Shown here: positions 7,178-21,709 of the stretch, one piece after another
How the letters are laid out: each line of letters opens with the position of its first letter
Numbering within the stretch: the first letter of the stretch is position 1
From: a virus
IMG/VR virus record: IMGVR_UViG_3300044636_000857
Coordinates: 1 to 21,709 of that record
Strand: one strand, 5' to 3'
DNA: 21,709 nucleotides
Translations under genes and position numbers: made by a program
Notes under the pieces: model-generated
What the model was told of the DNA's origin: nothing
The model's database searches: none
The model's input: the letters and a program-made list of their open reading frames with translations, nothing else

Positions 7178-7226
7178 AATAATTGGCTCTCAAAGGTAAT
7201 ACTGGTGAGAGCAGAACAATAATTGG
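7178..7226. promoter_or_regulatory. Repeat and dyad cluster in the divergent control region
   Basis: The nonamer AATAATTGG occurs at 7178-7186 and again at 7218-7226, exactly 40 bases (about four helical turns) apart. Between them GCTCTC (7186-7191) and GAGAGC (7207-7212) form a perfect inverted repeat with a 15-base gap. The cluster lies between the late operon start (7117) and the rightward gene at 7244, so it is well placed as an operator. I see no convincing sigma-70 promoter for the late operon here. Confidence 0.5.
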
Positions 7227-7243
7227 AAGAGGAGGATAAAAAA

Positions 7244-7474
7244 GTGGAGCAGGTAGTCGGAATGATTGACCCCAGAACTGAAGAGCTTGTAACACTCAAG
7301 GAGTTAGGTCAGAGGCTACAGAGAACGTACAACAACATCTACGAGTTGGTACGTGTTGGCCGAGAGAGTGTTGGAGGCAAGACAGTGCAACTGGAAGTTA
7401 TTAAAACCCCAGGCGGCATGAGAACTTCGATGGAAGCGTACTATAGATTTCTAAGGAAACTAAATGAGTGCTAA
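7244..7474 (+). CDS. Small DNA-binding-like protein (resembles planctomycete DUF1580)
   Basis: The start is GTG 7244, chosen for the GAGGAGG about eight bases upstream; the frame opens earlier at a TTG (7223) that would swallow this site. The 76-aa product has the layout of short winged helix/MerR-type DNA-binding proteins. 'LVTLKELGQRLQRTYNNIYELV' reads as a helix-turn-helix. It is followed by a beta wing and 'MRTSMEAYYRFLRKL', the 'trREALqrFl' ending used by excisionase-like proteins. DUF1580, as I remember it, is limited to planctomycetes and has this layout. It is transcribed away from the late operon and overlaps the next gene by 11 bases. Regulator of the late region or recombination directionality factor are both possible. 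Confidence 0.65.
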   Translation: MEQVVGMIDPRTEELVTLKELGQRLQRTYNNIYELVRVGRESVGGKTVQLEVIKTPGGMRTSMEAYYRFLRKLNEC

Positions 7475-7820
7475 CGAAGATTACATAATCCAAGGATTAG
7501 ACGCACTGACTCAGGGAATCACTGAGCTTACTACGCAAGTCGAAACACTTCGAGCAGAGCAAGATGAAGTAAGGATACCGGCGACTGTCACCGTAGCAAT
7601 GGAATCCCTAAAGATCTTGAGCCGTAGCCAAAAGATTGTCACTCGGCATACTGTCGAGAGGAACTCTGGCGTCGACACCACAAACAACGAAGTACCGTGT
7701 GAGTCGATCCATAGGTACCCCAGACCGCTTCAGGAAAGCGAGGCTGAGTTGCGAGATGTTTGTTGCCAACTGATCTCTGGCTATCTTATTCAATCGCTTG
7801 GCTCCCACGGCACCGATTGA
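7464..7820 (+). CDS. Short coiled-coil protein overlapping the recombinase 3' end
   Basis: The ATG at 7464 sits inside the end of the upstream gene, a typical coupling arrangement. The first 36 residues (IIQGLDALTQGITELTTQVE region) form a clean heptad coiled coil and look like real coding sequence. From 7608 on, the frame lies antisense over the last 213 bases of the recombinase gene, and its composition there looks less protein-like (Arg, Ser, Cys and His mixed without pattern). Either the protein is real with a tail shaped by the overlap, or only the N-terminus matters. No function can be given. A coiled-coil partner for the preceding DNA-binding protein is a guess. Confidence 0.45.
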   Translation: MSANEDYIIQGLDALTQGITELTTQVETLRAEQDEVRIPATVTVAMESLKILSRSQKIVTRHTVERNSGVDTTNNEVPCESIHRYPRPLQESEAELRDVCCQLISGYLIQSLGSHGTD

Positions 7821-9284
7821 GTCCAAGAACTGAGGCCAGATGTTTTCGACCGAAGTGACCTGACGATTAAATAAAGGCGTATACTTTGGCTTGACCCTTT
7901 TGGTCCTCACATCCTTGCGACTCAATCTTCCCTTGATCGCATACACCGCTGGCTTAATGCCCTTTTGCTGAGCAGTGATTGCATTGACGATAGCACAGGA
8001 GTGCGTGCCCTTGAACCCGTACTCTCGTCGTACAGTCATCGCCATTTGAAACCTAGCCGCCCTTGCCCAGTCAACGATGTACCTGCTTTGATTGCCACAC
8101 TTAACACCTTTGTAGAGCATGAATCGATGAGGCTCAGTGTAGCAGAGACCTTCACGCTTCATACGCGAGAAGCACTCCACAACCCTTGCTGACTTGATTT
8201 TGCTTTCTAGTTCCGCAAACATTGTAACCAGACTTAGGTACCAGTCTGAGTCAGTGCTGTCGGTAGAGATGTTCTCTTCTATCAGCCTTAGCGTTAAACC
8301 CTTCTTCCTCAACATAGCCACTGTATTGGCCATGTCCTTGAGCGAACGAAAGATACGGTCTCCACGGTAAACAACTAAACAATCTCCTGGCTTTGCTTCC
8401 TTCAAGAATCTACTGCCACCTGGGCGCTGATCGAAGGGAACCTTAAACGCAGACACCGCCTCGTCAGCCACAACCCCCATGCACTCGCTCTCAGAGTACT
8501 TGGCTAACTCCTCCTCAACTCTCATCCGTTGATTGGCTAAACCCAAGCCACTCTCTAGCTGACCATCTGATGAAACGCGAATGTAACCCCAAACACGCTT
8601 GAGCGATTGAACCTGCTTCTTTGGCTTTGCGTATGGAGATAGTATCTTGCTTGGCAGATCACCCTCCCTGATCTTAGACACCTCCTCCATCCTAATAGAC
8701 TTGGGTGTGCTACGTGCCGACTTGATGCCCTTACCTGCCTTTAGTCGCTTAATCGCCGCAGCTTCCCTCACTCGGAAGCCAAGCATGCGCGAGAAGTGCT
8801 CTGCAAGCACAGCCAGTAGGGCCGCCTTCAATTGTCCACTAGGACTACTCAAATCAATGTCGTCGTTGATAAAGTGAACAAGAATGCCTTTGCGACGAAA
8901 CAGATCGATCGTAGTACCAAAGTCACCTACGTTGCGGAACATTCTGTCCACCGACCAAACGAGAACATGATCTCCTGGCCGTAAGCTCTCAAGCAACTTG
9001 GAGCCAGCGGGGCGCTTACTTAGATGATTCTTATCATAAGCACTTACTCCCGCGTCAATAAAAAAGCCAGGAGGTGCGGATTCTGGATACCTATCGGTTG
9101 ACCAAGGTACACCTGCGAGCTTAGAATGTTTATACTGTACACATCTATCTGCCTGTGTTTCTGGGCTCAGAGATGTTCGTACACTCCCAGACTCAGAGAT
9201 TCGGCAATACGCAACAACGCAAGGAGGTCGTTCTGTGAAGAAAGTAGATCCTGTCGCAGATTTTTTAGCAGGTCGTGAAGCCAA
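7608..9284 (-). CDS. Serine recombinase with two tandem catalytic domains
   Basis: The 558-aa product contains two resolvase/invertase catalytic domains in one chain. Domain 1 (about 22-180) has Y26-C-R28-I-S30 with S30 as nucleophile, and DRMFR at 113-117. Domain 2 (about 230-378) has Y234-I-R236-V-S238, and DRIFR at 309-313. These match R8, S10, D67, R68 and R71 of gamma-delta resolvase, so both sites look intact. A Lys/Arg/Ser-rich linker (about 181-229) joins them. The last 180 residues are basic and presumably bind DNA, but show neither the Recombinase-family domain nor the Cys-rich zinc ribbon of large serine integrases. The only in-frame start is TTG 9284 after GAGGGG. The two domains are only distantly alike, so this is an old duplication or fusion. 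Role unknown: inversion, resolution or integration. Confidence 0.88.
   Translation of the reverse strand: MASRPAKKSATGSTFFTERPPCVVAYCRISESGSVRTSLSPETQADRCVQYKHSKLAGVPWSTDRYPESAPPGFFIDAGVSAYDKNHLSKRPAGSKLLESLRPGDHVLVWSVDRMFRNVGDFGTTIDLFRRKGILVHFINDDIDLSSPSGQLKAALLAVLAEHFSRMLGFRVREAAAIKRLKAGKGIKSARSTPKSIRMEEVSKIREGDLPSKILSPYAKPKKQVQSLKRVWGYIRVSSDGQLESGLGLANQRMRVEEELAKYSESECMGVVADEAVSAFKVPFDQRPGGSRFLKEAKPGDCLVVYRGDRIFRSLKDMANTVAMLRKKGLTLRLIEENISTDSTDSDWYLSLVTMFAELESKIKSARVVECFSRMKREGLCYTEPHRFMLYKGVKCGNQSRYIVDWARAARFQMAMTVRREYGFKGTHSCAIVNAITAQQKGIKPAVYAIKGRLSRKDVRTKRVKPKYTPLFNRQVTSVENIWPQFLDSIGAVGAKRLNKIARDQLATNISQLSLAFLKRSGVPMDRLTRYFVVCGVDARVPLDSMPSDNLLATAQDL
9221..9228 (+). promoter_or_regulatory. 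Strong ribosome binding site of the sigma factor gene
   Basis: AAGGAGGT matches the 16S rRNA tail and lies six bases before GTG 9235. It decides the start of the sigma gene and lies inside the coding sequence of the recombinase on the other strand. Confidence 0.8.
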
Positions 9285-10020
9285 GAGATTAACCCCTCTG
9301 GAAGAAAGCCAATACTACGAACAAGCAAAGAGCGGCGATAAAAAAGCAATCGAAATACTGTTGTGCTCTCAGGCACACTGGATCTGGACCCTCTGCCATA
9401 ATCACCCCAAGCCTCCTCAAGTCAACACGGACGAACTATTCAACGAAGCAATGTGCCAAGCCTATTTAGCAATAAAGAATTTTGATCCTGCCAAGGGAAG
9501 ACTTTCATCGTTCTTCTCTCGCGTCATCCCAAGGAAGTGTTCTGACTACGTGGTGAAGACAAGTAGCACCTTCGGCAAACGAATACCAATGGCCTACTCT
9601 TCGGAAACAAATTCTTTTCTCATTGACGAAGACAATGTAAAAGCAGTGTTAGCCGAAAACAAAGAAAGCAACATCTACGAGGACGAGTACCACAGCGAAG
9701 TAGACGAACTTGCTGGAGTAGTGACTTCAATACTAGCGGAGATGGAGCCAAGGTCAAGGTGGATTGTTGCAAAAAGACAAGAAGGCAAGACAGCGGAGGA
9801 AATTGCAGCCGAGGAGACACTGAACAACCTGCGATCTGGAAGGATGGGCCGAGTGGTAGAAGCCAGCAGTGTCATGCTGGCCCTACACGCTATTAAACGC
9901 GAAGTCTTTCGTGAACTGTCTCGACGCGACATACCTATCGATTGCTGCGTCTCTGGCTCCCGAATCGGCAAGCTATTCGACGACCTCAATACCGACGCCC
10001 AAAATCGCCTTTTCGACTAA
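9235..10020 (+). CDS. Phage sigma-70-family RNA polymerase sigma factor
   Basis: The 261-aa product starts at GTG 9235 with a near-perfect ribosome site. Region 2 spans about 38-105. 'NTDELFNEAMCQAYLAIKNF' and the following 'DPAKGRLSSFFSRVI' match the sigma 2.1-2.4 pattern 'DLiQEG..GL..A...FDP..G..FStya'. Region 4 is around 167-229. It opens with 'LAEMEPRSRWIVAKRQEG' and a 'KTAEEIAAEETL' helix, but then has an atypical stretch before the last helix (ALHAIKREVFRELSRR). Region 1.1 is absent, as in small alternative or phage sigma factors. Such factors redirect host RNA polymerase to late promoters. Its 5' end overlaps the recombinase start by 50 bases head-to-head, and its 3' end overlaps the acetyltransferase gene by 35 bases. 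Anti-sigma function is the main alternative; the conserved 2.2-2.3 core argues against it. Confidence 0.8.
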   Translation: MKKVDPVADFLAGREAKRLTPLEESQYYEQAKSGDKKAIEILLCSQAHWIWTLCHNHPKPPQVNTDELFNEAMCQAYLAIKNFDPAKGRLSSFFSRVIPRKCSDYVVKTSSTFGKRIPMAYSSETNSFLIDEDNVKAVLAENKESNIYEDEYHSEVDELAGVVTSILAEMEPRSRWIVAKRQEGKTAEEIAAEETLNNLRSGRMGRVVEASSVMLALHAIKREVFRELSRRDIPIDCCVSGSRIGKLFDDLNTDAQNRLFD

Positions 10021-10474
10021 GACGCTTAGAAAAGTACTGCTCAATCCTGTTCCTAGAGCTAGCGTTTGCACGCGAACTTAATCGCCAAACTTGGAATCCT
10101 TCGTTGTCGGCGTCTATCCCGAACACATGGAATCCACAGCGATGAGCAAACGCAACAGACGCTGGCTCCCAGCCAGGAACAGAGAGGGTAAGCAGCTTGA
10201 CATGATCTTGCCTCAGCAAACTATTAATCATGCCACGAGCGTAGCCCTTAAGCCTGTACTCATCCAGAACTGCAAGGCGACGAATGTAGATTTCGTGCAT
10301 GTCGCGTTCAGCGATCATGACACCTACGATCCTCTTTCCGTTCTTGATCACCTGGACGATGCTGCTGCCGTCGACCGCTTCTTGCACCTCATGTGCGACG
10401 ATGATCTTTGGGTAGCAAAGCTGAAGCACCCTTGTGGCCTGCTTGATGTCATCGGTTCCGTCGATCGCTCCCAT
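9986..10474 (-). CDS. GNAT-family N-acetyltransferase
   Basis: The 162-aa product carries the GNAT core. 'IYIRRLAVLDEYRLKGYARG' is beta4 plus the acetyl-CoA pyrophosphate loop (R-x-x-G-x-A, here RLKGYA). 'LTLSVPGWEPASVAFAHRCG' and 'FHVFGI' are the usual motif B region. ATG 10474 with GGAGGG eight bases upstream is preferred; the frame extends to 10531 with no ribosome site. It overlaps the preceding gene by 26 bases and closes the leftward operon, with its 3' end overlapping the oppositely oriented sigma gene. The substrate is unknown. In phages such enzymes may modify host or phage proteins, small molecules or modified DNA bases; nothing here tells which. Confidence 0.85.
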   Translation of the reverse strand: MGAIDGTDDIKQATRVLQLCYPKIIVAHEVQEAVDGSSIVQVIKNGKRIVGVMIAERDMHEIYIRRLAVLDEYRLKGYARGMINSLLRQDHVKLLTLSVPGWEPASVAFAHRCGFHVFGIDADNEGFQVWRLSSRANASSRNRIEQYFSKRLSRKGDFGRRY

Positions 10475-10754
10475 TTCTTTTGCCCTCCATAACAGTAATG
10501 ACCAGCCAGCAATTCTCCTGGGGAGCAACAACTGCGATCAATCCGCTGCAACGGCAATGAAGCACTGGCACACCATCCTGCATGCGCCAGCGCCTCAGCC
10601 AGAAGCCGCGTTGCATCTCACTACGTATTCTCTCTTGAACTCCATGCCTGTCCGGTATCGGATCAATCCTGAGCCAATACCGACGCAGTGCATGGTCTGT
10701 CACCTCTACCCGATCTGTAGTCTCAATCTTAAAACGGAATGTCGCCAAATCCAT
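10449..10754 (-). CDS. Hypothetical 101-aa protein after SSB
   Basis: ATG 10754 is the likely start because it lies 26 bases inside the end of the SSB gene, matching the overlap pattern of the operon; the frame itself runs up to 10853 through SSB coding sequence. The product is strongly basic. It contains 'VTDHALRRYWLRID' followed by a beta-rich end (VPVLHC...LIAVVAP...CWLVITVM). The H-A-x-x-R-x-x-x-R opening with a closing beta sheet recalls small DUF4258/RelE-fold-like proteins, which can be toxins or stand-alone RNA/DNA binders. The resemblance is weak and no antitoxin gene is adjacent, so I leave the function open. Confidence 0.68.
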   Translation of the reverse strand: MDLATFRFKIETTDRVEVTDHALRRYWLRIDPIPDRHGVQERIRSEMQRGFWLRRWRMQDGVPVLHCRCSGLIAVVAPQENCWLVITVMEGKRNGSDRRNR

Positions 10755-11169
10755 CGTCTGATGGGAAGTCGTCTTCGGATTTGACTGCGGGCTTACTTGC
10801 TGGTTTGCCTGCTGGCTTGCTGCTCGGCGTAGGTCGCTCTTGTTTTTCACCATTGCCCTTGGGCTTTCCTTCCAGCTTTAGCTGGCTTGCGTGAAGCTCC
10901 AAGTTGGATCTCTTCTCTCCATCCTTCTCCCATGAGTTCGTCTCCAGTTCTCCGTTGACAGTGACAAGACTCCCCTTCTCCAAGTATTGTTCCGCTGTCT
11001 CGGCTAACTTCCCCCAGAGAACGACATTAATGTTGCTCCACTTAGTCTCCTCTCCCATTTTCTTGCTCCAGCCCAAACGGATTCTGGCTACCTTAGTTCC
11101 GTTTTTTGTAGTATTCACACTTGGCGCATCGCTCAAATAACCATGAACAGTCGCAAACGCACTAGCCAT
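10729..11169 (-). CDS. ssb: Single-stranded DNA-binding protein
   Basis: The 146-aa product has the OB-fold of bacterial SSB in residues 1-105: 'GYLSDAPSVNTTKNGTKVAR' (beta1-2), 'WSNINVVLWGKLAETAEQYL', 'KGSLVTVNGELETNSWEKDG', then 'LELHASQLKLEG'. A Pro/Lys/Ser-rich linker leads to an acidic tip ending DDGFGDIPF, the docking peptide for SSB partners such as RecQ, RecO and Pol III chi. SSB coats ssDNA during replication and recombination. The ATG overlaps the previous gene by eight bases, and GGAG lies eight bases upstream. The intact acidic tip suggests it can recruit host repair and replication enzymes. Confidence 0.95.
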   Translation of the reverse strand: MASAFATVHGYLSDAPSVNTTKNGTKVARIRLGWSKKMGEETKWSNINVVLWGKLAETAEQYLEKGSLVTVNGELETNSWEKDGEKRSNLELHASQLKLEGKPKGNGEKQERPTPSSKPAGKPASKPAVKSEDDFPSDDGFGDIPF

Positions 11170-11383
11170 TTATCAAGCTCCACTTTCTCAAAGCATCAGA
11201 AACACTAATAAACACCACACATTTTTTGCGTAGTAAACGTAAAACTCTTTCCACATCTTTCTGAGGTAAATCTAAACCTCTCAAATAATCAGCCACCTCC
11301 TGATAACACTCTGACAAGTCCGACTTCGTAGGAAACTCCTCCGCTAGCTTCTCCAGAATGTACGACACGCCATCCTTGTTCAT
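11162..11383 (-). CDS. Small 73-aa helical protein, unknown
   Basis: Not recognised. The ATG at 11383 overlaps the stop of the HNH-like gene as ATGA, and its own end overlaps the SSB start by eight bases. The product is all-helical by appearance (YILEKLAEEFP, YQEVADYLRGLDLP, VERVLRLLRKK), with a mixed charge pattern and one hydrophobic helix (CVVFISVSDALRKWSL) too short and polar to be a clear membrane span. It may be a small accessory or inhibitor protein; sequence gives no clue. Confidence 0.65.
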   Translation of the reverse strand: MNKDGVSYILEKLAEEFPTKSDLSECYQEVADYLRGLDLPQKDVERVLRLLRKKCVVFISVSDALRKWSLING

Positions 11384-11811
11384 AATGACAATCCTGTATT
11401 CTCGAATAACATATTCATCCAGTACGCTGGTGGTCGCTTCGGATCAGGAGGTGAGCCCGTCCAAATACGACTATAGAACTCCGGATCGTAGAAGCCAGGA
11501 TCCATGATCTGTTTGATCCACAGCAGGTGGGAGGCATCAATCGTAGGATACGATCTGCCGCCAATCTTCTTCTCTGCGATCCTCTCTGAATCGTTCACAT
11601 GGCACTCGTGCACTAGCGGACACAGCAGCACCACAGCCCGACGATCATTGACGCGATGCATCGCACCTGAACCGCTACTCAAGTGAGCCACTTGCAGCCA
11701 CCAATCGCCATACCAGTTGGCTGGACGAGTACCCTTGGTCAATCCTGAGATCCAGCAGAATCTTCTTCCTGAGATGTCGCGTATTGCTCCAGCATCTCCT
11801 TTTTCGCCCAT
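11380..11811 (-). CDS. HNH-like nuclease domain protein (start uncertain)
   Basis: The frame opens at ATG 11850, but two later starts are possible: ATG 11811 (143 aa, used here) and TTG 11739-11741 at the stop of the upstream gene. ATG 11811 keeps C19 of 'RRFCWISG', which may be the first ligand. The core reads 'WWLQVAHLSSGSGAMHR' then 'RRAVVLLCPLVHECHVND', matching the HNH pattern 'qvaHi......R..n...LC..CH', with H43, C64, C70 and H71 as candidate metal or catalytic residues. HNH proteins of this sort in phages process recombination intermediates or packaging DNA, or are homing endonucleases. The second half (DASHLLWIKQIMDPGFYDPE) is not recognised. The large overlap with the previous gene (73 bases) is unusual even for this operon. 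Confidence 0.6.
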   Translation of the reverse strand: MGEKGDAGAIRDISGRRFCWISGLTKGTRPANWYGDWWLQVAHLSSGSGAMHRVNDRRAVVLLCPLVHECHVNDSERIAEKKIGGRSYPTIDASHLLWIKQIMDPGFYDPEFYSRIWTGSPPDPKRPPAYWMNMLFENTGLSL

Positions 11812-12212
11812 ACGTTTTTCAGGTAGCCCTGAAAGTCCTGACTGTTCCATCCTTCAGCCTCCGCTTTTCTTAGTGCCACAACCCGCAACCTCGGACTCAA
11901 TTTCGCAGCAGCTAGGTGGTGAGACCACGATAGGCTGGCATTGCGATGCTCTGGTGGATACTTAGCAGCCATCGCTACACACCGATGAAGCAAATCAGGA
12001 CTAAAGCTTGGATCTACTGCCTGATATGCATCATCACCAAACAGTTTTTCTCCTTGTAGGATCGCATCACCAATCCACCAGTAAATGTGTCTTTGCATCC
12101 AAGCCAGTCTGCTTAGTGTTTCTTCAAGCTGATCTAGGCTAGGCGGAGCCGAGCAGTACATCCTGCTATCAGTAAAAATGAAAGGACCATCCCTAAATGA
12201 GAAATCGTTCAT
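11739..12212 (-). CDS. Hypothetical 157-aa protein with helix-turn-helix-like layout
   Basis: The start is ATG 12212, which overlaps the stop of the nuclease gene as ATGA and has GAGGTG five bases upstream. The product is helical. It contains 'IYWWIGDAILQGEKLFGDDA' and 'ASLSWSHHLAAAKLSPRLR', then 'LRKAEAEGWNSQDFQGYLK'. This 'IGD.L..GE..yG......sfSHH..vA.L.......lL..Ae.eGw' pattern recurs in uncharacterised phage and actinobacterial proteins that look like ParB/KorB-type DNA binders. I recall the pattern but not a named family. A DNA-binding role in the recombination operon is plausible. Confidence 0.7.
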   Translation of the reverse strand: MNDFSFRDGPFIFTDSRMYCSAPPSLDQLEETLSRLAWMQRHIYWWIGDAILQGEKLFGDDAYQAVDPSFSPDLLHRCVAMAAKYPPEHRNASLSWSHHLAAAKLSPRLRVVALRKAEAEGWNSQDFQGYLKNVWAKKEMLEQYATSQEEDSAGSQD

Positions 12213-13135
12213 ACCAGCACCTCAACATCTAAGGTTTGATTCAATCTATGAAGGCGATGTGTGTCGAAGTATGCTTTCTCAAACTCCATCAGTCCCGCAG
12301 CCACCTTCTCGGAAAACTGATTCTTTACTTGATCGATGGCATTGAGGCAGTTGATATAGCTTCCGAAAGTAATCAGTAACTTACTGGCTGTCTTCTCTCC
12401 AACACCTGACGCACCAGGGATGTCATTGCGACCAACCATAGCCAGCCAATCCACCCACTGCTTAGGTTCGCAGGCGTAATTCTTAAACAACGACTCGCGA
12501 TTGAAGAACTGTCCCTTCCAGTACATGTTCACTTTGGGTCCGAGACACTGATACAAATCCTTGTCTTGGCAAACCATTACACACTTATCGCCAGCAAGTG
12601 CATACGAGGTGGATAGTGAGGCCAATACGTCGTCTGCGTCATACGTTGGAAACATATATCGTTTCACGCCACGCTTATCAAGTGCCTCCCTAGCACTAGC
12701 AACAAAAGACAAAAAGCCGCTAGTGATGTCGAGCCGACTGCTTTTCCAACGTGAGTCTTTAGCATACCTCCAGCTTTCTTCCTCCATCTCATCAGCAAAC
12801 AGGAAGAGCGAACTCATTGAGAAAGCCATCTTAATTCTTGAAATGATGTCAGCGAACTCAGATGCTGGACTGGTATCCTTGGCGCGATGATACGCTAAAT
12901 GGCAGATAGCCTTGAAGTCAATCACCACCACGATCCTCTCCTTTCGGCCCTCAAGGAAGTCAGCCAATCGTTTGTTATACGCTGGCAAGCAACCTCTCAA
13001 ATACCAAGCTTGACTAACAAAGTGCACAAGGTTTCTTGCCACTGACACAAGCTGCGGGATGTTCTCACACTCTAAAAGCATCTGCCGAAAATCTTTGATC
13101 TGTTCGGCCTGCCACTCCGTTATACTACTAGCCAT
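12209..13135 (-). CDS. FEN-family 5'-3' exonuclease / flap endonuclease
   Basis: The 308-aa product resembles the 5'-nuclease domain of Pol I and phage T5 D15, which removes RNA primers and flaps. Visible landmarks: D73 in 'VVVIDFKA', D115 in 'LFADEM', 'YDADDVLAS' at 165-173 (E128/D130/D131 equivalents), 'CQDKDLYQCL' at 189-198, and an H3TH 'IPGASGVGEKTASKLL' at 239-254. The segment before the H3TH reads 'MVGRNDIPG' instead of 'vGDxxDNIPG': R236 replaces the first Asp and two residues are missing. This may change the second metal site. The first 65 residues are an extra helical extension not found in the family core. ATG 13135 has AGGAG eight bases upstream and overlaps the helicase end by eight bases. 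Confidence 0.88.
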   Translation of the reverse strand: MASSITEWQAEQIKDFRQMLLECENIPQLVSVARNLVHFVSQAWYLRGCLPAYNKRLADFLEGRKERIVVVIDFKAICHLAYHRAKDTSPASEFADIISRIKMAFSMSSLFLFADEMEEESWRYAKDSRWKSSRLDITSGFLSFVASAREALDKRGVKRYMFPTYDADDVLASLSTSYALAGDKCVMVCQDKDLYQCLGPKVNMYWKGQFFNRESLFKNYACEPKQWVDWLAMVGRNDIPGASGVGEKTASKLLITFGSYINCLNAIDQVKNQFSEKVAAGLMEFEKAYFDTHRLHRLNQTLDVEVLV

Positions 13136-14732
13136 TACCTGTACTCCTAAGTGCTGCTGCTTCCGTTTGATTTACCTTGCGACTCCAAGTTGATTCATCT
13201 CGTGGCATCCTTAGCAAATCACCTGGAGGGTAGTAGCCATAGGTGCGATAGAATAAGGCTTTGAGTTGATTAAAGTTCATGGCACGAGGACTTGTAGAGT
13301 TTCGTGTTCTGAAGTAAAGATTGTCCCACCTCTGCTGGTCAGCACTGGATCTTGGACGAGTACGAGGTGGACGAAAGTTTGGTCCCGTCACCCGACGCAG
13401 TTCACCGTTCTGCTGCACAATCATCTTGCTTCTACCGCGAGACTCTCTACCGCATCCAACCGGAGGAGCAGGGCAAGCAGGCATATTGCCGTGACGCACA
13501 GTTCCACAGTGCGGACACACAATTGGATCTTGGTCAGGATTTTTTTCCGCTTGCTCGCGTATCTTCTTCTCAATCTGCTCCTCAGTCTGATAGTACATCT
13601 CCTCCCAGTTACGGTCCCGATTAGGCCCGCCACCGAATTTGTAATAGGAGCCAGCATGATCCGTAATTAGAACGTGGTCAGGTGTCTCTGCCGAATAGCG
13701 AATAACCCTACCCGTCGATTGCAAGTACGTCTTGATCGATCCCATGGGACAGGCAAGAACTAAGTGATACATCTGTGGCAAGTCGATGCCCTCCCTGAGG
13801 ACAAAGCGATTGCATATCACCTTGATGTCACCAGCTTTCCACGCCTCCAGTACCTCTTGTCGAATCTTGCCATCTGTGTCCGTGTACACCTGATCGTTGA
13901 TCTGCACTTTATTGGCATCAATATGAGCAGCCTTTACGCCCTGCCGCATGAAGTCCAGCGTCAATCCAATCGATGACTCTACGCAGGGTGCGAACACAAG
14001 CGTTGGCCTTTTGTCTGGATTCTCGGTAAACCACTCTTCAATCACACGACCAACAATCTGCTGACTCCACACATGTTTTCTGATGTCACCGATACTGTAC
14101 TCGCCCGTCTTGACTCGCTTAACCTTCGACAAGTCAAATTCAAACGGAGCCTTAATCACAGCCCTTACGTGAGCACCAGCAGCCAAGCATTCTGAAGGTT
14201 TACCTGACACAACCAGCTTCGGGTACAAGTGACTCATACCCACAGGAGTTGCCGACAAGCCGACGATCTTTCGATTGCGATGCAGGTAAGACCTTAAGAA
14301 CTTTTCGCTCTCACCACTGGCTTGCAAGTGCCCCTCATCCACAAACACATAGTCAGCGTCAAACGGTTCCCAGCGATTACTGTTAATGGTTCTTGAGATC
14401 TCCGTCTGAATGGAACTAATCTGTATATCCTGCGTCGAATCAAAATGCTCAGCCAGTGATGCTGCTCGCACACCAAAGCCTATACCTTTAGCTTGAGCGT
14501 TAAGCATCGTTTGATGCGTGAGCATCTTGCGGTTAGTCAGGATCAAACACTTAGCTCCCTGGCTCTGATAATACTGAGCTAGTGCCCACATCATGTCTGA
14601 CTTACCTCCACCCGTAGCACTACATAGCGTTACGGCATTCGTCGATCTCAAAGCCTCCACTACCTGCACTACACCATTGATCTGATGAAGCCAAGGAGTC
14701 CTTGAGAAGAATGGCATTAAGGCTTCTTGCAT
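13128..14732 (-). CDS. SF2 DEAD/DEAH-type helicase
   Basis: The 534-aa product starts at ATG 14732 (GGAG six to seven bases upstream), 16 bases inside the previous gene; earlier ATGs in frame lack a ribosome site. Motifs: a Q-like 'WLHQINGVVQVVEAL', Walker A SATGGGKS (38-45), DEGH box in 'VFVDEGH' (129-135), LSATP (159-163), 'REGIDLPQ' (313-320), and 'QSTGRVIR' (338-345). This is the RadD/UvsW/type III-like translocase group, which remodels branched DNA such as forks, D-loops or Holliday junctions. After the helicase core comes a CPHC pair (406-409) with C420 and C427, a likely zinc knuckle, and a basic tail. Neighbours (5'-nuclease, SSB, ParB-like) fit a role in recombination-dependent replication. 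Confidence 0.93.
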   Translation of the reverse strand: MQEALMPFFSRTPWLHQINGVVQVVEALRSTNAVTLCSATGGGKSDMMWALAQYYQSQGAKCLILTNRKMLTHQTMLNAQAKGIGFGVRAASLAEHFDSTQDIQISSIQTEISRTINSNRWEPFDADYVFVDEGHLQASGESEKFLRSYLHRNRKIVGLSATPVGMSHLYPKLVVSGKPSECLAAGAHVRAVIKAPFEFDLSKVKRVKTGEYSIGDIRKHVWSQQIVGRVIEEWFTENPDKRPTLVFAPCVESSIGLTLDFMRQGVKAAHIDANKVQINDQVYTDTDGKIRQEVLEAWKAGDIKVICNRFVLREGIDLPQMYHLVLACPMGSIKTYLQSTGRVIRYSAETPDHVLITDHAGSYYKFGGGPNRDRNWEEMYYQTEEQIEKKIREQAEKNPDQDPIVCPHCGTVRHGNMPACPAPPVGCGRESRGRSKMIVQQNGELRRVTGPNFRPPRTRPRSSADQQRWDNLYFRTRNSTSPRAMNFNQLKALFYRTYGYYPPGDLLRMPRDESTWSRKVNQTEAAALRSTGNG

Positions 14733-15571
14733 TGTTCTCTCCATATCGTGACGAACGAAGCAAAGGCCACCTGCACTCTCTCTTTCCATGGAGATCGCTT
14801 TAGCTTTTTACCTTCGGCAACCGAGTCGATGCGAGCAGGAAGCTCAGCAATAAACCTCTCAATCTTGGCTATCTCTTGCTCAAGACGTTTGTTTTTCTGC
14901 TCAGGCTTTTCCGGTTGGCCCGACTGGTGCTCAGCAACTGCCTGAACAACTTCCTCCACAGAACGGAATACTAGATCCTCGCCTACGTTCGTTGGCAAAT
15001 TCTCTAGCACATCACACACCTGAGATTTCTGCGACTCAGGCAAGTCCTTGATCGACAGAATAGATTCTGGGGTAGCTGCAATGTGACCATGAACAATGTT
15101 CCGCTTAGCCTGCGGAGTTAAGGAATCAAGCACTTCCGTCACTGCTAAATCCGACCAGATCTGGCGAGCCGAAACACCCGTTGCTTTAGCGACTGAATCT
15201 ACAATTGCAGTCTTTAACCCACGAACATTACTAATCTTGCTCGCCTTGGCTTCGACAAGCATAGCCCTCCACCGAGCCCGACTAATACCATCTCCATTAC
15301 GCCGACCGAACTGATGAGCGAAGATCCAATCCTTAACCTGCTGACGATTCTCAAAAGGAATGTCGATCGTAGTAAAAGGTACGTTCTCGGCTAACGCAAT
15401 CTCGTAGCGAGTCATACCGTCCACGACTATATCCTCACCCTCCCATACAACAATCGGATCGATCACTCGGCCATCGCGAACAATGTTCTTGCGTAACTGA
15501 TCTAGCTCTTCAGCACTATGAGCCTCTAGTAAATTCCTGAACTCATCATCAACGACCAATAGCCTGTTCAT
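14717..15571 (-). CDS. ParB-like nuclease/partition-domain protein
   Basis: ATG 15571 is preferred (GGAAGGA, eight-base spacer); the frame extends to 15640. The 284-aa product begins with a ParB/Srx-like domain at about 10-92. 'HSAEELDQLRKNIVRDGRVI' is followed by 'DPIVVWEGEDIVVDGMTRYE', and VDGMTRYE corresponds to the conserved 'DGhhRleA' loop; then 'IFAHQFGRRN' corresponds to the 'eNlqR.d' motif. A helical, HTH-like middle (ATGVSARQIWSDLAVTEVL) follows, then a highly charged coiled-coil region. ParB-type proteins bind centromere-like sites or act as CTP-dependent clamps; some phage members nick DNA. No ParA is present, so plasmid-style partition is unlikely and a replication or regulatory role is more probable. 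Confidence 0.85.
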   Translation of the reverse strand: MNRLLVVDDEFRNLLEAHSAEELDQLRKNIVRDGRVIDPIVVWEGEDIVVDGMTRYEIALAENVPFTTIDIPFENRQQVKDWIFAHQFGRRNGDGISRARWRAMLVEAKASKISNVRGLKTAIVDSVAKATGVSARQIWSDLAVTEVLDSLTPQAKRNIVHGHIAATPESILSIKDLPESQKSQVCDVLENLPTNVGEDLVFRSVEEVVQAVAEHQSGQPEKPEQKNKRLEQEIAKIERFIAELPARIDSVAEGKKLKRSPWKERVQVAFASFVTIWREQCKKP

Positions 15572-15767
15572 CCACTTGTTCCTTCCATAGGTAGCTCTTG
15601 CCAGAACTCGTCTCCACCTCTTCTGCATATCCTCGCTCAACAGCCTGCTTCCAAATCGTCTCGTCCTTCATGCTACAACTGTCTACCAGAGCAGCACCCA
15701 GGAACATTGAAACAGCCATACACAAGCACGTTATGCTGATACAGTCATCTACTTCTTTCTCACGCAT
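15549..15767 (-). CDS. Small single-span membrane protein, 72 aa
   Basis: The start is ATG 15767, sharing TAATG with the stop of the previous gene and preceded by GGAGGGG. Residues 1-8 are charged, then residues 9-28 form a hydrophobic, Cys-rich membrane span (CISITCLCMAVSMFLGAALV). The exposed tail reads 'ETIWKQAVERGYAEE' and 'GKSYLWKE', a 'W..aav.rG.Ae......g...Wk' pattern that I have seen at the end of small membrane proteins from many unrelated phages. The family's function is unknown to me. Its neighbour upstream is also a membrane protein, so the two may act together, for example in membrane attachment of replication, superinfection exclusion or lysis. Confidence 0.72.
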   Translation of the reverse strand: MREKEVDDCISITCLCMAVSMFLGAALVDSCSMKDETIWKQAVERGYAEEVETSSGKSYLWKEQVDEQAIGR

Positions 15768-16021
15768 TACCAAGCCCCTCCGAACAGCAAGAACGCAGCC
15801 AGTGCGATAATAGGCCACACCCACCACGGAGCACCTAGAAATATCAACAACCCTTGCATCAAGAACTTCATTGCCCAAGACGGCAGAAAACCGCTAAGCT
15901 TTTCGTAGAGATTGAAAATCGCCTGACGGATCCTCTTGAATGGCCTGAATCTCCTGCGCTCACTACCATCCTGATTCTGCGATTGTCTGCGGCCCCAACC
16001 CCTGAATCTCTTCAGCATCAT
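15767..16021 (-). CDS. Small basic membrane protein with C-terminal hairpin, 84 aa
   Basis: AAAGGAG lies four bases before ATG 16021 and seven before a second ATG at 16018, so the real start may be the second. The frame extends to 16078 inside the helicase gene without a site. The first 45 residues are strongly basic (RRQSQNQDGSERRRFRPFKR). They are followed by an amphipathic helix and two short hydrophobic stretches (about 50-64 and 67-82) separated by 'APWW'. That suggests a membrane hairpin with the basic part in the cytoplasm. Overlap with the helicase gene is 59 bases. Function unknown; no holin-like family is recognised. Confidence 0.68.
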   Translation of the reverse strand: MMLKRFRGWGRRQSQNQDGSERRRFRPFKRIRQAIFNLYEKLSGFLPSWAMKFLMQGLLIFLGAPWWVWPIIALAAFLLFGGAW

Positions 16022-17648
16022 AGAACTCCTTTGTGAAAACAAATTGACTTGGGACGACTGGATCGACACACAAAACAAGACGATCCTTGGCTCGTGTCAT
16101 TGCCACGTACATCAATCGCCTCTCCTCAATTATTCCCTCCTCAGAGCGAATGGATTTCTTGCTTGGAAAAACTCCCTCCTTAAGGTCAGCTATGATCACC
16201 ACTGGCCACTCTAGACCCTTCGCCTGATGGATCGTAGATACAGTGACCGCATCCTTGCTTGACTCAACCTCCGCAGGCGAAACCAGCTTCTCAACCGCAT
16301 CACGCACGAAGTAACCACCCACGCTCTTCTTGACCTCAACTACACTTGAACGAAGCTCTGGCACATCCTTCACTTCCTCAAGCGCCTCAGCAAACACTAA
16401 CTCTGTATTGCTACACGAGCTAATAAATTTCACAATCGACACCCCATTCCTGTTGGTCACTAGAGAAGCCAGGATGTCCTCTGGCTCATTCCCTGTTAGA
16501 TGGATCGATATTTGACGAGCAGCTTCCTTGAACAGAATCTGATGAATGACATTATCCCTGTTCATGCCAAACATCGCGGCCATAGCCAGAAATGCTACCT
16601 TACCTTGCACTGGCTTGACTGCGTTGCATGGCACATTAGTCTCTGCTAACTCACGAGCCAAATACTCTACCGTTCGGTTTGTTCTGCAAAGAATCGCTAT
16701 CTCCTGTGGCTGATATAGATCCTCCATGAGCCTCAATACCTCTAGGACTGGACGATCGGTAGAGACTGTCACTGGCTCAAACACACTATCTCGCACAGAA
16801 ACCACATCGGCCTCAGCGTCAGGATTAAACTGAATTAGATGATTACTTGCTCGCACAATCTTGGGCTGGCAACGAAACGATTCCTTTAGCGGCAAAGCCA
16901 AACTCTTTTCACTGACAGCATAGCTATGAAAAATCTCTGGAGCCGCATTACGCCACGAGTAAATGTTCTGGTTCATGTCACCGACAATCACAAGCTGAGC
17001 AGCAGACCGCTTAACCAACTCCTCAATCAGAAGCCACTGAATCTTGGACGTATCCTGAGCCTCATCCACAATGAGAAGCCTGCACGATGGTCGGTACATA
17101 CCTGACTGCAAGACCCATATCGCCGTAAGCAATACACCTAAGTAGTCGCTGTAGTTGCTGGTCGTCATCAATTGATCCATCGCACCTAGCAGCCTAGCCT
17201 CTTCCGTTACCTTAGCGTTCTCGGCAGGACGATTGCCTAGATAAGGAGCTACTCTCATTTCATCAATAAGTGATGCCACCTCTGGCGTAGCCTTGACCTT
17301 GTGCATCTCACAAACGATCTGAAACAGAATCCAGTGACATGCTGGACTCAGTAGCTTTAGATCGGAAAAGCGATTCTTGGCGATACTCAAAGCCAGGGCG
17401 TCGATCGTACTAGCCTGCACCCGTCGACCTTGCCGACCAAGCCTGTCTTTAAGCTCTCGTGCCGCTCGCCGCGTGAACGTGATCGCAATCACATCTTCAC
17501 CAGCCATGCCTCGCTCTAGATGCTCCTTAATCAAGCCAACGACCGTATGCGTCTTGCCTGATCCTGGGCCAGCCTTCACAACCACTGGCCCCATTCTCAT
17601 TAGGCTTGAATGAATAATTGCTTCCTGCTGCTCTGAAAAATCAGACAT
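15963..17648 (-). CDS. UvrD/Rep-like SF1 DNA helicase
   Basis: The start is ATG 17648, overlapping the stop of the ATPase gene by eight bases, with GGAGG upstream; the frame extends to 17720 without support. The 561-aa product has all SF1A motifs. These are the Q motif 'FSEQQEAI', Walker A AGPGSGKT (26-33), Ia 'AITFTRRAARELKDRL', II VDEAQD (194-199), III 'GDMNQNIYSWRNA' (223-235), IV 'LKESFRCQPKIVRASN', V 'VSTIHQAKGLEWPVV', and VI 'RLMYVAMTRAKDRLVL'. It is shorter than Rep/UvrD (about 670-720 aa), mainly through reduced 1B/2B insertions. It should unwind 3'-5' on ssDNA. It sits after an SMC-like ATPase, which suggests the two work on the same DNA ends or forks. Confidence 0.95.
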   Translation of the reverse strand: MSDFSEQQEAIIHSSLMRMGPVVVKAGPGSGKTHTVVGLIKEHLERGMAGEDVIAITFTRRAARELKDRLGRQGRRVQASTIDALALSIAKNRFSDLKLLSPACHWILFQIVCEMHKVKATPEVASLIDEMRVAPYLGNRPAENAKVTEEARLLGAMDQLMTTSNYSDYLGVLLTAIWVLQSGMYRPSCRLLIVDEAQDTSKIQWLLIEELVKRSAAQLVIVGDMNQNIYSWRNAAPEIFHSYAVSEKSLALPLKESFRCQPKIVRASNHLIQFNPDAEADVVSVRDSVFEPVTVSTDRPVLEVLRLMEDLYQPQEIAILCRTNRTVEYLARELAETNVPCNAVKPVQGKVAFLAMAAMFGMNRDNVIHQILFKEAARQISIHLTGNEPEDILASLVTNRNGVSIVKFISSCSNTELVFAEALEEVKDVPELRSSVVEVKKSVGGYFVRDAVEKLVSPAEVESSKDAVTVSTIHQAKGLEWPVVIIADLKEGVFPSKKSIRSEEGIIEERRLMYVAMTRAKDRLVLCVDPVVPSQFVFTKEFYDAEEIQGLGPQTIAESGW

Positions 17649-19515
17649 GGATAACCTCCAGCTTTGTGTCACCAACCACAGTGTCGTGCCAGTGAGCAAT
17701 AAAGACATTGCCTCGTGCAACGCGAGTCAGTGCTAAGACAAACTTGTTGGTATAAACCGAATCAAGTTCACCGCCCTCTAAGAATAGTAGTGATCTCACT
17801 ACGTTACGTACAGCATGAATAGCCAAAATAATCGAAGATCCGTAGATCAATCTCTCAGCACCACTCATCGCTGCAAACACGCTTCCATTGGTGTTCTTGA
17901 TGACCACAGACGGACGCTTGCCAGCCACTGGCTCAATCACTACCGGAGATAAGTCACAGTAAGTAATGATCTGATTAGCAATCTCACACACCTTACCAAT
18001 CCCATCGTTCATCGCCTTAACTCGGAACGATTGCAAGTCCTCAACCAACTGCTCGAAGTATGGTTCCAGTGACTTAAGCTTTGTTGATTGATTACGTGCA
18101 TCTTGCGCAGTGAGTAAATAGCGTGAGTATTCATTGGCTCGCGTGATACAACCCGTCACCTGCTGTAACCGATACGCTGTCGCCTGCAACTTCTCTTCGT
18201 CCACCACCACTAACTTATCCTGTAGAGACTCATTCTCACGACGATAGTTTGCGATCTGAGAATCAGCATGCTTGCTTGATGCCGCCGCCTTATCGATCTG
18301 GCTCTTGCTCTGCGAGATAAGACCCTCACACAAACCTATGCACTTAGCAATCGACTTGCGTGTAATTGCCGGAAACCCCAGACCTTGAGCATGGCTCATT
18401 TCACGTACCGTCTGATACAAGTTATCCAGATGTTCGTCATCGCCCACGACATACGTGTTCTGAGTAACGTACTCTTGAACCAGTCCAACAAACTTATCTG
18501 ATACCTTGATTAGCTCGTGTTCTGGGTTCAAAACTCGTATACACTCAAGCAAATCACCTACCTTACTCGTAAAGAAGCCGAGGCTGCTAAAGTCTTGTGG
18601 ATCGACAAAATCCGGCATCCTAGCAAGCAACTCTTGACACTGCTCAAGTAACTCAGTCTTGGCAGCCAGTGATGCTGTTAACTGCTGCTGTGTCTCAGCA
18701 AACGACTTGACTTGATTGCCTAGCCGTTCGATCTGAGAGTTGTTGTAAGCGATCGTCTGCTCTACCGTAGTCTTAGCCGTAGCCATCTCTGTGAACTGGT
18801 TGATCTGCGACTTAAGGCTAGCCTGCTCTAACTTGAGATCCTCTAGCGATGGACCATCGTAAGGCTGTGGAGCAGTCTCAATCGCCTTCAGGATCGCCCT
18901 AGCTTTCTCTCGCACTTCTCGCAAGCTGATATTAACCTGCTCAAGTAACTGAGTCGCTCGGCTAAAGCAATCCAGTTCACCTGCCAACTGAAGTGCAATG
19001 TCTGCCGTTGAGAAGCCAGCATCTGTCAGCTTCTTCATTAGATCACCGACCGACTGCTTGATATGCTCTGGCAGTCCCTCGCCCGAAGCAGAGTCCACCG
19101 GCATAATCAATCGCCAAACCTCTTCGCCGGTTAGATCGCGGAACTGATCGATCGACACCGGAACATTACCACACTGGCTTGCAGCTTCAGCCTCACTGAC
19201 CTGCATACCATTGATCATCATTACACGAGACTGGCTTACCGATCCCTTCTTGCTCAGCGTGAGCGATAGCTTTGCAACCATGCCATCATCAGCCTCACAC
19301 ACCACAGAACAACTATCACTACCACTGCGAACGAGAGCACCGGCACCCTTTGCTCCAATCTCCTCACATCGGCCAAAGATAGAATATTGAATACCCTGTA
19401 GCAAAGCAGACTTCCCGCTGCGATTGCCACCGCACACATAAGTCACTGGCTTAAGATCGTACCGCCCATCCTTGAGCCCTTTTAGATTGCTCACCTGCAC
19501 ACTCTTCAAACTCAT
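17641..19515 (-). CDS. SMC/Rad50-like ATPase with coiled coil
   Basis: The 624-aa product has the layout of short SMC/Rad50/RecF-type ATPases. Walker A GGNRSGKS (29-36) is at the N-terminus. A long central helical region with coiled-coil heptads (about 180-500) is broken by a folded segment. The signature 'AAMSGAERLIYGSSI' is near 548-562, and a Walker B-like 'LLFLEGGELD' is at 576-585. The usual hhhhDE...LD is altered: E580 and G581 stand in for the D-E pair and the loop is two residues shorter. An H-loop-like 'FIAHWHDT' follows. No zinc hook CxxC and no TOPRIM domain are present, and no SbcD/Mre11 partner is encoded. ATG 19515 overlaps the preceding stop as ATGA. Likely role: DNA-end or structure-binding ATPase in recombination. 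Confidence 0.85.
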   Translation of the reverse strand: MSLKSVQVSNLKGLKDGRYDLKPVTYVCGGNRSGKSALLQGIQYSIFGRCEEIGAKGAGALVRSGSDSCSVVCEADDGMVAKLSLTLSKKGSVSQSRVMMINGMQVSEAEAASQCGNVPVSIDQFRDLTGEEVWRLIMPVDSASGEGLPEHIKQSVGDLMKKLTDAGFSTADIALQLAGELDCFSRATQLLEQVNISLREVREKARAILKAIETAPQPYDGPSLEDLKLEQASLKSQINQFTEMATAKTTVEQTIAYNNSQIERLGNQVKSFAETQQQLTASLAAKTELLEQCQELLARMPDFVDPQDFSSLGFFTSKVGDLLECIRVLNPEHELIKVSDKFVGLVQEYVTQNTYVVGDDEHLDNLYQTVREMSHAQGLGFPAITRKSIAKCIGLCEGLISQSKSQIDKAAASSKHADSQIANYRRENESLQDKLVVVDEEKLQATAYRLQQVTGCITRANEYSRYLLTAQDARNQSTKLKSLEPYFEQLVEDLQSFRVKAMNDGIGKVCEIANQIITYCDLSPVVIEPVAGKRPSVVIKNTNGSVFAAMSGAERLIYGSSIILAIHAVRNVVRSLLFLEGGELDSVYTNKFVLALTRVARGNVFIAHWHDTVVGDTKLEVIHV

Positions 19516-20642
19516 TGTGTCACCCTCAAATGATCTATGATCTTGTCAATCGTTTCTAAAGTTACGTTTGGCTTTACAAGGTCGCTCTTAGTCTTCAGCC
19601 CCTGCAAGCGAAGTGCAGCCTTTACAAGCTCATCAACCTGCCCTGGCTTCTCTTCATTGCGAGGTATCTTCTCAATCGCTGCCCGCAAATCATTCAATGC
19701 GTCTGCTTTACTCCTAACCTTCTTCTGAGGGGACTCAATTACTGAAGTGACTTCAGTAACCTCGTCCTCGTCATTTTCGTTGACCGTCTCAATGTCCTCA
19801 TCCGTGGCTTCTGCGTACTCCGCTTTGACATCAATGTAGTCACCATCAATCACTACGCTGCCCTGTTTGTTACGTGACACCACATCACCCAGCTTCATTA
19901 GGTCTTTATCCGCCTGAGGCCAAATTGTAATTGTCACCGTATTGTCTTCATCTACGTAGTGAAGTCCCAACAGCTTGCGCATAATGTTTCTGGAGGCCAT
20001 GCTGTAAGCGTTCCTCTCAGCAAACTTCTGCTTCTCAAGATGCTCCCGATAGATTGCCAAGACAGCCTTGCTATTAAGATCAACCTCTAGCTCAACTCCC
20101 ATCGATACAGGCACCCGTATACAACTAGGAGGGCAGGGTGGAGCGGCTGCCGAGTTGATCAGCCTACCCCAATCCTTAACCTCACCACTTCGCTTGTCGT
20201 GCCACTTGGCGTACAAATCAGAAGCCAAATATGCCTTAAAGTTAAACACAAAGGTCAAGTCCTGAGCCTGCCAGTTACCGCTAGGCCCACGGCAAGCACC
20301 AATCACCCTAACCTTCACGTACTCCAGCATGCCGTTGGATTCGTGTAGGTAAGGATTGCCTACCTCGCGACCGTCTGACGAGATAATCGTGTCTGGGCTG
20401 ACGAAGTTAATTCCGATCAAACTGCGAAGATAATCATACCCCTTGGCTGTAATCACCTTCTTCTGCTCGTACTGCTTGGTCTCAGCATTCAGAACCGTCA
20501 TGTTGTACCACTGGCCCTGCTCTGCGGTGAGCATGACCTTCTTCGTGATACTGTACACAGCACCATCTGGCTGCACCCGAACCAAAGCACCCTTACCATC
20601 GGCGCCGTAAACATGCCGCAATGTCGACAACTGGCTACTCAT
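19512..20642 (-). CDS. Unrecognised 376-aa protein, possible annealing/recombination protein
   Basis: The start is ATG 20642 (GGAG eight bases upstream, overlapping the previous stop); the frame extends to 20702. The first 240 residues form a mixed alpha/beta domain. It has a 'VITAKGYDYLRSLIGINFVS' segment, then 'VKVRVIGACRGPSGNWQ', and a basic helix 'KFAERNAYSMASRNIMRKLL'. That A-x-x-x-A-x-x-RNxxxKxLG helix before an end-of-domain strand resembles phage single-strand annealing proteins of the RecT/ERF/Rad52 type, where a similar helix closes the core. The fit is suggestive only. Residues 270-330 are an acidic linker (DEDIETVNENDEDEVTEV), and the last 70 form a small helical domain. First large gene of the early operon and immediately before an SMC-like ATPase. 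Confidence 0.75.
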   Translation of the reverse strand: MSSQLSTLRHVYGADGKGALVRVQPDGAVYSITKKVMLTAEQGQWYNMTVLNAETKQYEQKKVITAKGYDYLRSLIGINFVSPDTIISSDGREVGNPYLHESNGMLEYVKVRVIGACRGPSGNWQAQDLTFVFNFKAYLASDLYAKWHDKRSGEVKDWGRLINSAAAPPCPPSCIRVPVSMGVELEVDLNSKAVLAIYREHLEKQKFAERNAYSMASRNIMRKLLGLHYVDEDNTVTITIWPQADKDLMKLGDVVSRNKQGSVVIDGDYIDVKAEYAEATDEDIETVNENDEDEVTEVTSVIESPQKKVRSKADALNDLRAAIEKIPRNEEKPGQVDELVKAALRLQGLKTKSDLVKPNVTLETIDKIIDHLRVTQ

Positions 20643-20899
20643 CGGCTTTTCTCCATGATCATTTGAAAGACACCCAACTGATGCTCTGGCGTATCCAGCC
20701 ACAGAATGTGACCGTAATCCTCTTCCTTGCCGTCGAAGTAGTCGACCAAGGCATTGATGGCCCGATCGTGACGCTCCTCACCAAAAAACGTCTGGATCAT
20801 GTCAACCCAGAAAAAGAACGGCTGCCGCAGATTGTCCATCTCGCAGTCGTGTGAATGATTGGCAAAGTGATCTGCCGTGACTGGTAACTCGGCCTGCAT
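20639..20899 (-). CDS. Acidic 86-aa protein, first gene of the leftward operon
   Basis: Not recognised. ATG 20899 has AGGAGGAATTGT directly upstream, a near-ideal ribosome site. The product is acidic, with several His and Phe/Trp residues (HFANHSHDCEMDN, QPFFFWVDMIQTFFGEE, DYGHILWLD), and has no membrane segment. Being first after the operon's promoter, it would be made early and in quantity, like many small phage proteins that bind and redirect host enzymes. Nothing in the sequence identifies a target. Confidence 0.78.
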   Translation of the reverse strand: MQAELPVTADHFANHSHDCEMDNLRQPFFFWVDMIQTFFGEERHDRAINALVDYFDGKEEDYGHILWLDTPEHQLGVFQMIMEKSR

Positions 20900-21014
20900 A
20901 CAATTCCTCCTAGCACCTAGCCAGATGCTCTTTAGCGGTGGATCGCTATCCTAAGAAAACAAGAAAGTCCCACTGAGATAAGCAATTCGCAAACTGCAAA
21001 TCGCTGACGGTTGA

Positions 21015-21043
21015 AAGATAGAAATGCCCGAAAGCTTGGTCAA
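21015..21043 (-). promoter_or_regulatory. Candidate early promoter of the leftward operon
   Basis: On the minus strand TTGACC (21043-21038) and TATCTT (21020-21015) are separated by 17 bases, a 5/6 and 4/6 match to the sigma-70 consensus at the ideal spacing. Transcription would start near 21008, about 110 bases before the first gene. A second TATCTT on the same strand at 21105-21100, with TTGTGG 16 bases ahead of it, could be a weaker tandem promoter. Confidence 0.6.
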
Positions 21044-21060
21044 TACTCTGCCATCACTGG

Positions 21061-21081
21061 CTGACCAATCGATTCAATCAG
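21061..21081. promoter_or_regulatory. Operator-like dyad with a repeated 10-mer
   Basis: The site has the form CTGA-cc-AATCGATT-caa-TCAG, a near-perfect palindrome centred on ATCGAT. Its right part, GATTCAATCA (21071-21080), recurs at 21168-21177, where it overlaps the -10 box of the candidate rightward promoter. The placement upstream of the leftward promoter and on the rightward one suits a shared regulator. Confidence 0.45.
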
Positions 21082-21142
21082 CAAAGGCCATTAGAGCGAA
21101 AGATAATAAAAAAGTCGTACCCCACAATGGGTATAAAAAGAC

Positions 21143-21170
21143 TTGACTATCTTATCTAGCCTGCTAGGAT
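21143..21170 (+). promoter_or_regulatory. Candidate rightward promoter toward the integrase
   Basis: TTGACT (21143-21148) and TAGGAT (21165-21170) are 16 bases apart, matching the sigma-70 consensus at 5/6 and 4/6. The integrase start lies about 180 bases downstream, with the tandem repeats in between. The repeated GATTCAATCA element begins inside the -10 box. Confidence 0.45.
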
Positions 21171-21247
21171 TCAATCAACTGTTTCGAAAAGAGAGATTAA
21201 TCCAACCATAAGTAGTGGTTCCGAAAGTGGAGGATAAGGGACTTGAA

Positions 21248-21283
21248 GAAAATTCGGAAAATTCGGAAAATTTGGAAAAATTT
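21248..21283. repeat. Four tandem 9-bp AT-rich repeats
   Basis: The units are GAAAATTCG (21248-21256), GAAAATTCG (21257-21265), GAAAATTTG (21266-21274) and a degraded GAAAAATTT (21275-21283), head to tail without spacers. A C-rich tract (21284-21302) follows at once. Possible roles are integrase arm sites, iterons for a replication protein, or a slippage-prone linker. The nearness to the integrase start (21355) favours a recombination or autoregulation role. Confidence 0.6.
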
Positions 21284-21354
21284 ACCCCCTACCCCTCACC
21301 CCACTATCTGTGGCGTAGATTAGGAAATCCTCTCTTGGTCCTTACCTAGCGAGA

Positions 21355-21709
21355 ATGTCCATGTTGCTACAAGAATTTTTTGAATCAATCTACACACCCC
21401 TAAAACTTCGAGGTCGCAGCAAGGAGACTGTCCGGTTGTATCGATTATCGATACGGTCTTTTGAGAAGACGCTGGGCAGAAAAGCACTCCTAAGTGACCT
21501 AACCGACCTGGAAATGGCTCGTCACTTAAGCCGAGTCGGAGCCAGTGGTCGGGCTGCTGCGACGGTTAACAAAGACAGGGCGCAGATCCTGGCGATCTGG
21601 CGTTTTGCCTGTCAGCGTGGCTATCTCCAGATTTGGCCCAACGTGCCAGCCGAGATAGAACCTAAGCGAACTCCGCAGGCTTGGCTACCAGAGGAGTTGC
21701 TTGCCATCC
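21355..21709 (+). CDS. Tyrosine recombinase (integrase), 5' part only
   Basis: The frame starts at ATG 21355, or ATG 21361 two codons later; neither has a strong ribosome site. It continues past the window end, so the catalytic domain with the Arg-His-Arg-Tyr residues is not visible. The 118 residues seen form a core-binding (SAM-like) domain. 'KLRGRSKETVRLYRLSIRSF' and 'LSDLTDLEMARHLSRV' are followed by 'AATVNKDRAQILAIWRFACQ', then 'EPKRTPQAWLPEELLAI', which leads into the catalytic part. This layout closely matches planctomycete chromosomal integrases as I know them. It points away from the early operon, the common place for int at the edge of a temperate phage or integrated element. Confidence 0.85.
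   Translation, partial: MSMLLQEFFESIYTPLKLRGRSKETVRLYRLSIRSFEKTLGRKALLSDLTDLEMARHLSRVGASGRAAATVNKDRAQILAIWRFACQRGYLQIWPNVPAEIEPKRTPQAWLPEELLAI

Follow-up and report, generated by a model that had tools for sequence, protein, structure and literature searches.

An attP-integrase region with putative divergent promoters in a virus that probably integrates at tRNA-Ala(GGC) of Planctomycetota

Described integration modules and the locus under study

Phages and islands that target tRNA genes by means of tyrosine recombinases carry a tyrosine integrase gene next to a short stretch identical to a tRNA 3' end, and the att/int pair described here belongs to this known kind, in a host group that is poorly studied. 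It differs in that the hosts are planctomycetes, the core lies upstream of int and is inverted, and the system is known here from sequence alone. In the sections cited here on the integrative elements ICEclc and ICEKp1, an int promoter lies across attP from int and drives int in the excised form only, and int is co-directional with the tRNA gene, whose promoter drives int when the element is integrated (PMC13023037). Pcirc has also been described in the cited parts of two further reports (PMC2892462; PMC9286271). The present locus resembles these elements, as far as those sections describe them, in having a putative int promoter (Pint) across attP that should be able to drive int only when the element is excised. 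In contrast to them, int opposes the tRNA here (the tRNA sense of the core is on the minus strand and int is encoded on the plus strand), Pint would turn antisense to the tRNA, and the element is a phage and not an ICE. As the orientation of int differs, we have not placed it as a member of the ICEclc/ICEKp1 type. The ssrA modules of Dehalococcoides, in the portion of their description cited here, have a history that differs from that of their cargo and a sharp identity boundary; they are 9-11 kb modules within vcr islands, with a serine recombinase at ssrA (PMC3146451). On that partial description, the present locus is alike in being an integration module with its own history and a sharp identity edge, but it is a 1.1-kb tyrosine-integrase cassette in a phage.

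The window, that is the whole stretch of DNA analysed, is a virus contig of 21,709 bases with structural genes (recognised by eye) and a leftward replication operon. In the family search, ORFs of the contig matched UvrD helicase, DEAD/ResIII helicase, 5'-3' exonuclease, SSB and an SbcC-like ATPase. The contig end falls inside a rightward tyrosine integrase gene, and the region under study, 20900-21354, is the exact gap between this gene and the first leftward gene. The product of the latter (86 aa) is 29% identical to its homologue in the relative L004 and had no Pfam or PHROG family; its fold model (mean pLDDT 70.7) had no PDB match at E <= 0.001. The Rfam search of the window gave nothing at gathering score.

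The window also encodes a second recombinase besides int, a 558-aa ORF (7608-9284, minus strand) with two resolvase (PF00239) stretches in a single chain, which makes it an unusual double serine recombinase. Divergent from it and overlapping its start is a protein with sigma-70 region 2 (9235-10020, plus strand), through which the phage may supply its own sigma factor. An 83-aa protein at 7223-7474 was considered as a possible excisionase; it had no Pfam match and a model of mean pLDDT 56, and nothing is claimed of it.

The relatives that cover the gap are two IMG/VR contigs from other metagenomes, each analysed as differing cuts. One is a divergent relative (cuts L004 and L009), whose 396-aa early protein is 67% identical, and the other is a close relative (cuts L005 and L010), with L010 being 99.75% identical to window positions 13253-21709. 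In scans of viral contigs for further relatives, the finds besides these two informative contigs were a 23% integrase match and a contig that carries tRNA genes. In the phage records nothing matched the 396-aa protein, the terminase or the integrase, and in the plasmid records nothing matched the integrase. The features of the region, in window coordinates, are:

20639-20899, minus strand: 86-aa ORF, first gene of the leftward operon; AGGAGG at 20911-20906 precedes its ATG
21015-21043, minus strand: sigma-70-like leftward promoter TTGACC-17-TATCTT, a consensus match kept in the divergent L004/L009
21138-21709, plus strand: apparently exchangeable Pint-attP-int cassette; only L009 and L010 extend to its right end, which lies just past the int stop codon
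21143-21170, plus strand: putative int promoter Pint, TTGACT-16-TAGGAT with TG before the -10, a consensus match kept in three contigs
21226-21247, minus strand: attP core, a copy of the tRNA-Ala(GGC) 3' end reaching from the T-loop to 2 bases beyond the discriminator base; identical to L015 over 22 nt
21248-21279, plus strand: 9-bp tandem repeat (AATTCGGAA-like), present three times in the window and twice each in L004 and L005
21355-21709, plus strand: tyrosine integrase gene by family matches, cut off by the contig end; 294-295 aa in relatives

The attP core and its tRNA

Read on the minus strand from 21247 to 21226, the core is TTCAAGTCCCTTATCCTCCACT. Neither this 22-nt tRNA 3'-end copy nor the adjoining 9-bp tandem repeat had been part of the original prediction. 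The core is identical at 22 of 22 positions to the tRNA-Ala(GGC) of a Planctomycetaceae MAG (L015), where it is the sole match of the window in the 7.6-kb locus, and the similarity to the tRNA ends immediately upstream of the 22 bases. The identity of 21226-21247 as attP is strongly supported, and we infer that the MAG represents a host of the phage. The neighbouring integrase is represented in the window by its N-terminal part only; the full-length L004 integrase matches PF00589 (E 2.9e-9) and PF02899. At the level of a guess, the 9-bp repeats are candidate arm-type integrase sites.

The occurrence of the core was followed in viral and cellular genomes. Among the matches listed for the viral collection, its first 20 bases were found in three contigs, the two relatives and a contig of 177 kb (L011). 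The collection of 84,980 species had this 20-mer at five places, three in one Planctomycetaceae MAG, one in a Planctomyces MAG and one in a Lachnospiraceae MAG (L014), with no tRNA at the last of these. L015 is a complete tRNA-Ala(GGC); in L017 a contig edge leaves only the 3' part of one. The core copies L016 and L018 lack a tRNA body, and each is followed by the same terminator-like hairpin. When one mismatch at most was allowed, 32 of the 170 family genomes had the 22-mer, at 37 places in all; none of the genomes listed in this survey had the backwards 22-mer used as a control. Of the 37 places, 20 were fetched: 15 of these form the end of a full tRNA-Ala(GGC), another 2 are truncated at contig edges and the remaining 3 are displaced copies. 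In one genome (G152), an intact tRNA-Ala and a displaced copy lying 9.45 kb apart bracket an element with phage-like ORFs (by eye) and an integrase-like ORF adjoining the tRNA, which indicates that the tRNA-Ala(GGC) end is a site used for integration in these hosts, by other integrases.

The G152 element spans 7302-16752 of locus L054, with integrase-, primase- and capsid-like ORFs recognised by eye, and a second integrase-like ORF lies beyond the displaced copy; it may be a small prophage or a satellite that lies in tandem with another element. The 177-kb viral contig carries at 4922-4994 a tRNA-Ala(GGC) whose 3' end is the first 20 bases of the core, with 11 tRNA genes in the examined stretch, and is perhaps another planctomycete virus.

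The ability of phages to carry such tRNA-Ala genes, as on this 177-kb contig, would also allow the tRNA-like stretch to be an inherited fragment (for example a decayed phage tRNA gene) or a product of chance, with the integrase acting elsewhere. In keeping with this, an integrated copy of the phage was found neither in the two MAGs with the exact core, from which the integrase is absent, nor in the 170 family genomes, from which the 396-aa early protein is absent. However, the match is exact over 22 nt, comprises the 3' end only, adjoins the integrase gene and is kept in three contigs, and an equivalent layout exists at another tRNA in a relative. We consider such a fragment highly improbable.

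That relative was found among genomes that share the family and class of the MAG, in which relatives of the integrase are up to 49% identical. Upstream of the closest one (G422, locus L065, 49% identical), comparison with its own genome gave a 22-base match to the 3' end of tRNA-Ser(GCT) (E 0.0014), which precedes int by 166 bases and has the opposite orientation to it, as in the window. On the other side of the att core from int, L065 has a Cro/C1-type HTH gene, so a regulator can occupy this place in the wider family; a promoter-like site facing int was absent there at the threshold used. The tRNA-end layout was not shown by three of the four integrase relatives examined: in L056 a tRNA end is present, but downstream of int and beside another integrase; in L066 the region upstream of int is a repeated element; and in L067 no att-like layout was found. 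Other distant integrase loci were scanned solely for tRNA genes or T-loop motifs. One more distant integrase locus, L039, has an apparent 5' half of a tRNA (by eye).

Divergent promoters, the cassette and the decision-region proposal

The original prediction of opposing promoters is supported for one site on each strand. The leftward TTGACC-17-TATCTT recurs exactly at the homologous place in L004/L009, with an unrelated spacer and as one site per contig. In this part of the alignment, left of window position 21138, L009 and L010 have only about 40-57% column identity per 60-column step, and the longest word common to both is TGGTCAATACTC, which covers part of the -35; a length of 12 nt was reached in 1.2% of shuffled pairs. 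On comparative grounds the site is well supported as the promoter of the leftward operon, and it would drive the replication genes with the 86-aa gene first. Pint is kept in all three contigs, and between the window and L009 it has three substitutions, all of them in the spacer, the hexamers being unchanged. Conservation thus supports divergent promoters in one control region, and there is a moderate case for both sites being promoters in function.

The leader of the leftward transcript contains a small hairpin at 20935-20950 (minus strand), TAGCG-GTGGAT-CGCTA, for which L004 has GGGCG-GTGGAA-CGCCT in the same columns, with the loop nearly kept and two stem pairs changed on both sides; the comparison rests on two sequences, and the predicted fold of the window is without this hairpin. 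The 5' leader hairpins differ between the two phages, as far as two sequences can tell. Just upstream of the leftward promoter is a terminator-like stem-loop with a T run (21118-21133, minus strand), a type of site that was not enriched over shuffles.

Just outside the -35 of the rightward promoter, the identity between L009 and L010 rises from about 50% to about 97%, and it falls again about 10-13 bases past the int stop codon, beyond which the two share only a 34-base match. The 1.1-kb cassette is about 97% identical between the two phages and its flanks about 35-57%. An assembly chimera is unlikely, given that the two copies differ by about 3% and were recovered from separate metagenomes. 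It therefore seems that Pint, attP and int move as one unit, and the alignment makes a strong case that the cassette has been exchanged between divergent phages.

The gap had been regarded as a dense switch-like region of the kind expected for a phage decision. All the motifs on which this was based are present: GAAAGATA at 21013 and 21098, GATTCAATCA at 21071 and 21168 (the latter copy overlapping the TAGGAT -10), and the 8-bp palindrome AATCGATT at 21067. Their density, however, is not clearly above chance. In the stretch 20900-21240, chosen such that the tandem repeat is left out, the observed numbers were reached by 12% of dinucleotide shuffles for repeated 8-mers, 7.5% for repeated 10-mers, 13% for 8-bp palindromes and 11.5% for promoter-like sites. 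Conservation, the check that had been proposed, likewise extends to the leftward promoter and Pint but not to the other motifs: the aligned L004 lacks the second GAAAGATA with its TATCTT box, the dyad and the GATTCAATCA copy at 21071, and the GATTCAATCA copy at 21168 has become GATTCAAACA in L004 and in L005. Being unconserved in L004 and with counts not clearly above those of shuffles, the repeats and the dyad were rejected as operators.

A lysis/lysogeny decision region in which a repressor encoded at another place uses the dyad, the GAAAGATA boxes and the GATTCAATCA repeats as its operators would agree with divergent promoters 100 bp apart and with the HTH gene across the att core of L065. 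Besides the shuffle counts and the absence of the motifs from L004, the loss of one GATTCAATCA copy already in the 99.75% identical L005 and the lack of any repressor-like family among the window ORFs scanned argue against it, and we regard it as improbable. The remark that no repressor gene is adjacent was borne out, the neighbours being the 86-aa ORF of no family and int. The gap 20900-21354 is a real control region that is best read as an attP-integrase region and not as a lysis/lysogeny switch.

Integration and its possible consequences

Taken as such, the gap is probably the attP and divergent promoter region of a temperate Planctomycetota phage that integrates at tRNA-Ala(GGC) and in which Pint would be uncoupled by integration. 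After infection, Pint would direct int transcription across attP, Int would recombine attP with the tRNA-Ala gene and the core copy of the phage would restore the tRNA 3' end. As the crossover must lie inside the core, with Pint and int on opposite sides of it, integration would cut int off from Pint. Given the opposite strands of the core (minus) and of int (plus), int would come to lie beside the host DNA downstream of the tRNA, with Pint pointing antisense into the tRNA gene. Loss of the linkage between Pint and int would favour a stable prophage. The separation is deduced from the map, on which Pint is a putative element, and regulation by integration is speculative.

Expression of int would be unchanged by integration if attP is as described and int has a promoter of its own between the core and 21355. 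A weak site starting in the core edge, TTGAAG-17-GAAAAT, agrees with the consensus at 8 of 12 positions and its L004 counterpart, TTGAAA-18-AAAAAT, at 9 of 12. However, both have poor -10 hexamers, the site across the core matches better and has TG before its -10, and the cassette edge takes in this across-core promoter, which is Pint; we hold a separate int promoter to be rather unlikely. The weak site could nevertheless permit some int expression after integration. Returning to the uncoupling of Pint, it is tentatively possible that integration itself is the switch, by which int is disconnected from Pint, Pint becomes a convergent antisense promoter <60 bp from the tRNA-Ala(GGC) end and int is left facing the displaced terminator of the tRNA. 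No repressor would then be needed for integration to limit itself, and the integrase for excision would have to come from another source.

The locus provides a precise attP/attB pair for a planctomycete phage and suggests a host group for a virus that was otherwise unplaced. It also shows that an attP-integrase cassette together with its putative promoter can pass as a unit between divergent phages. The tRNA-Ala(GGC) end, which is used by several unrelated integrases, could be a landing site for planctomycete genetics.
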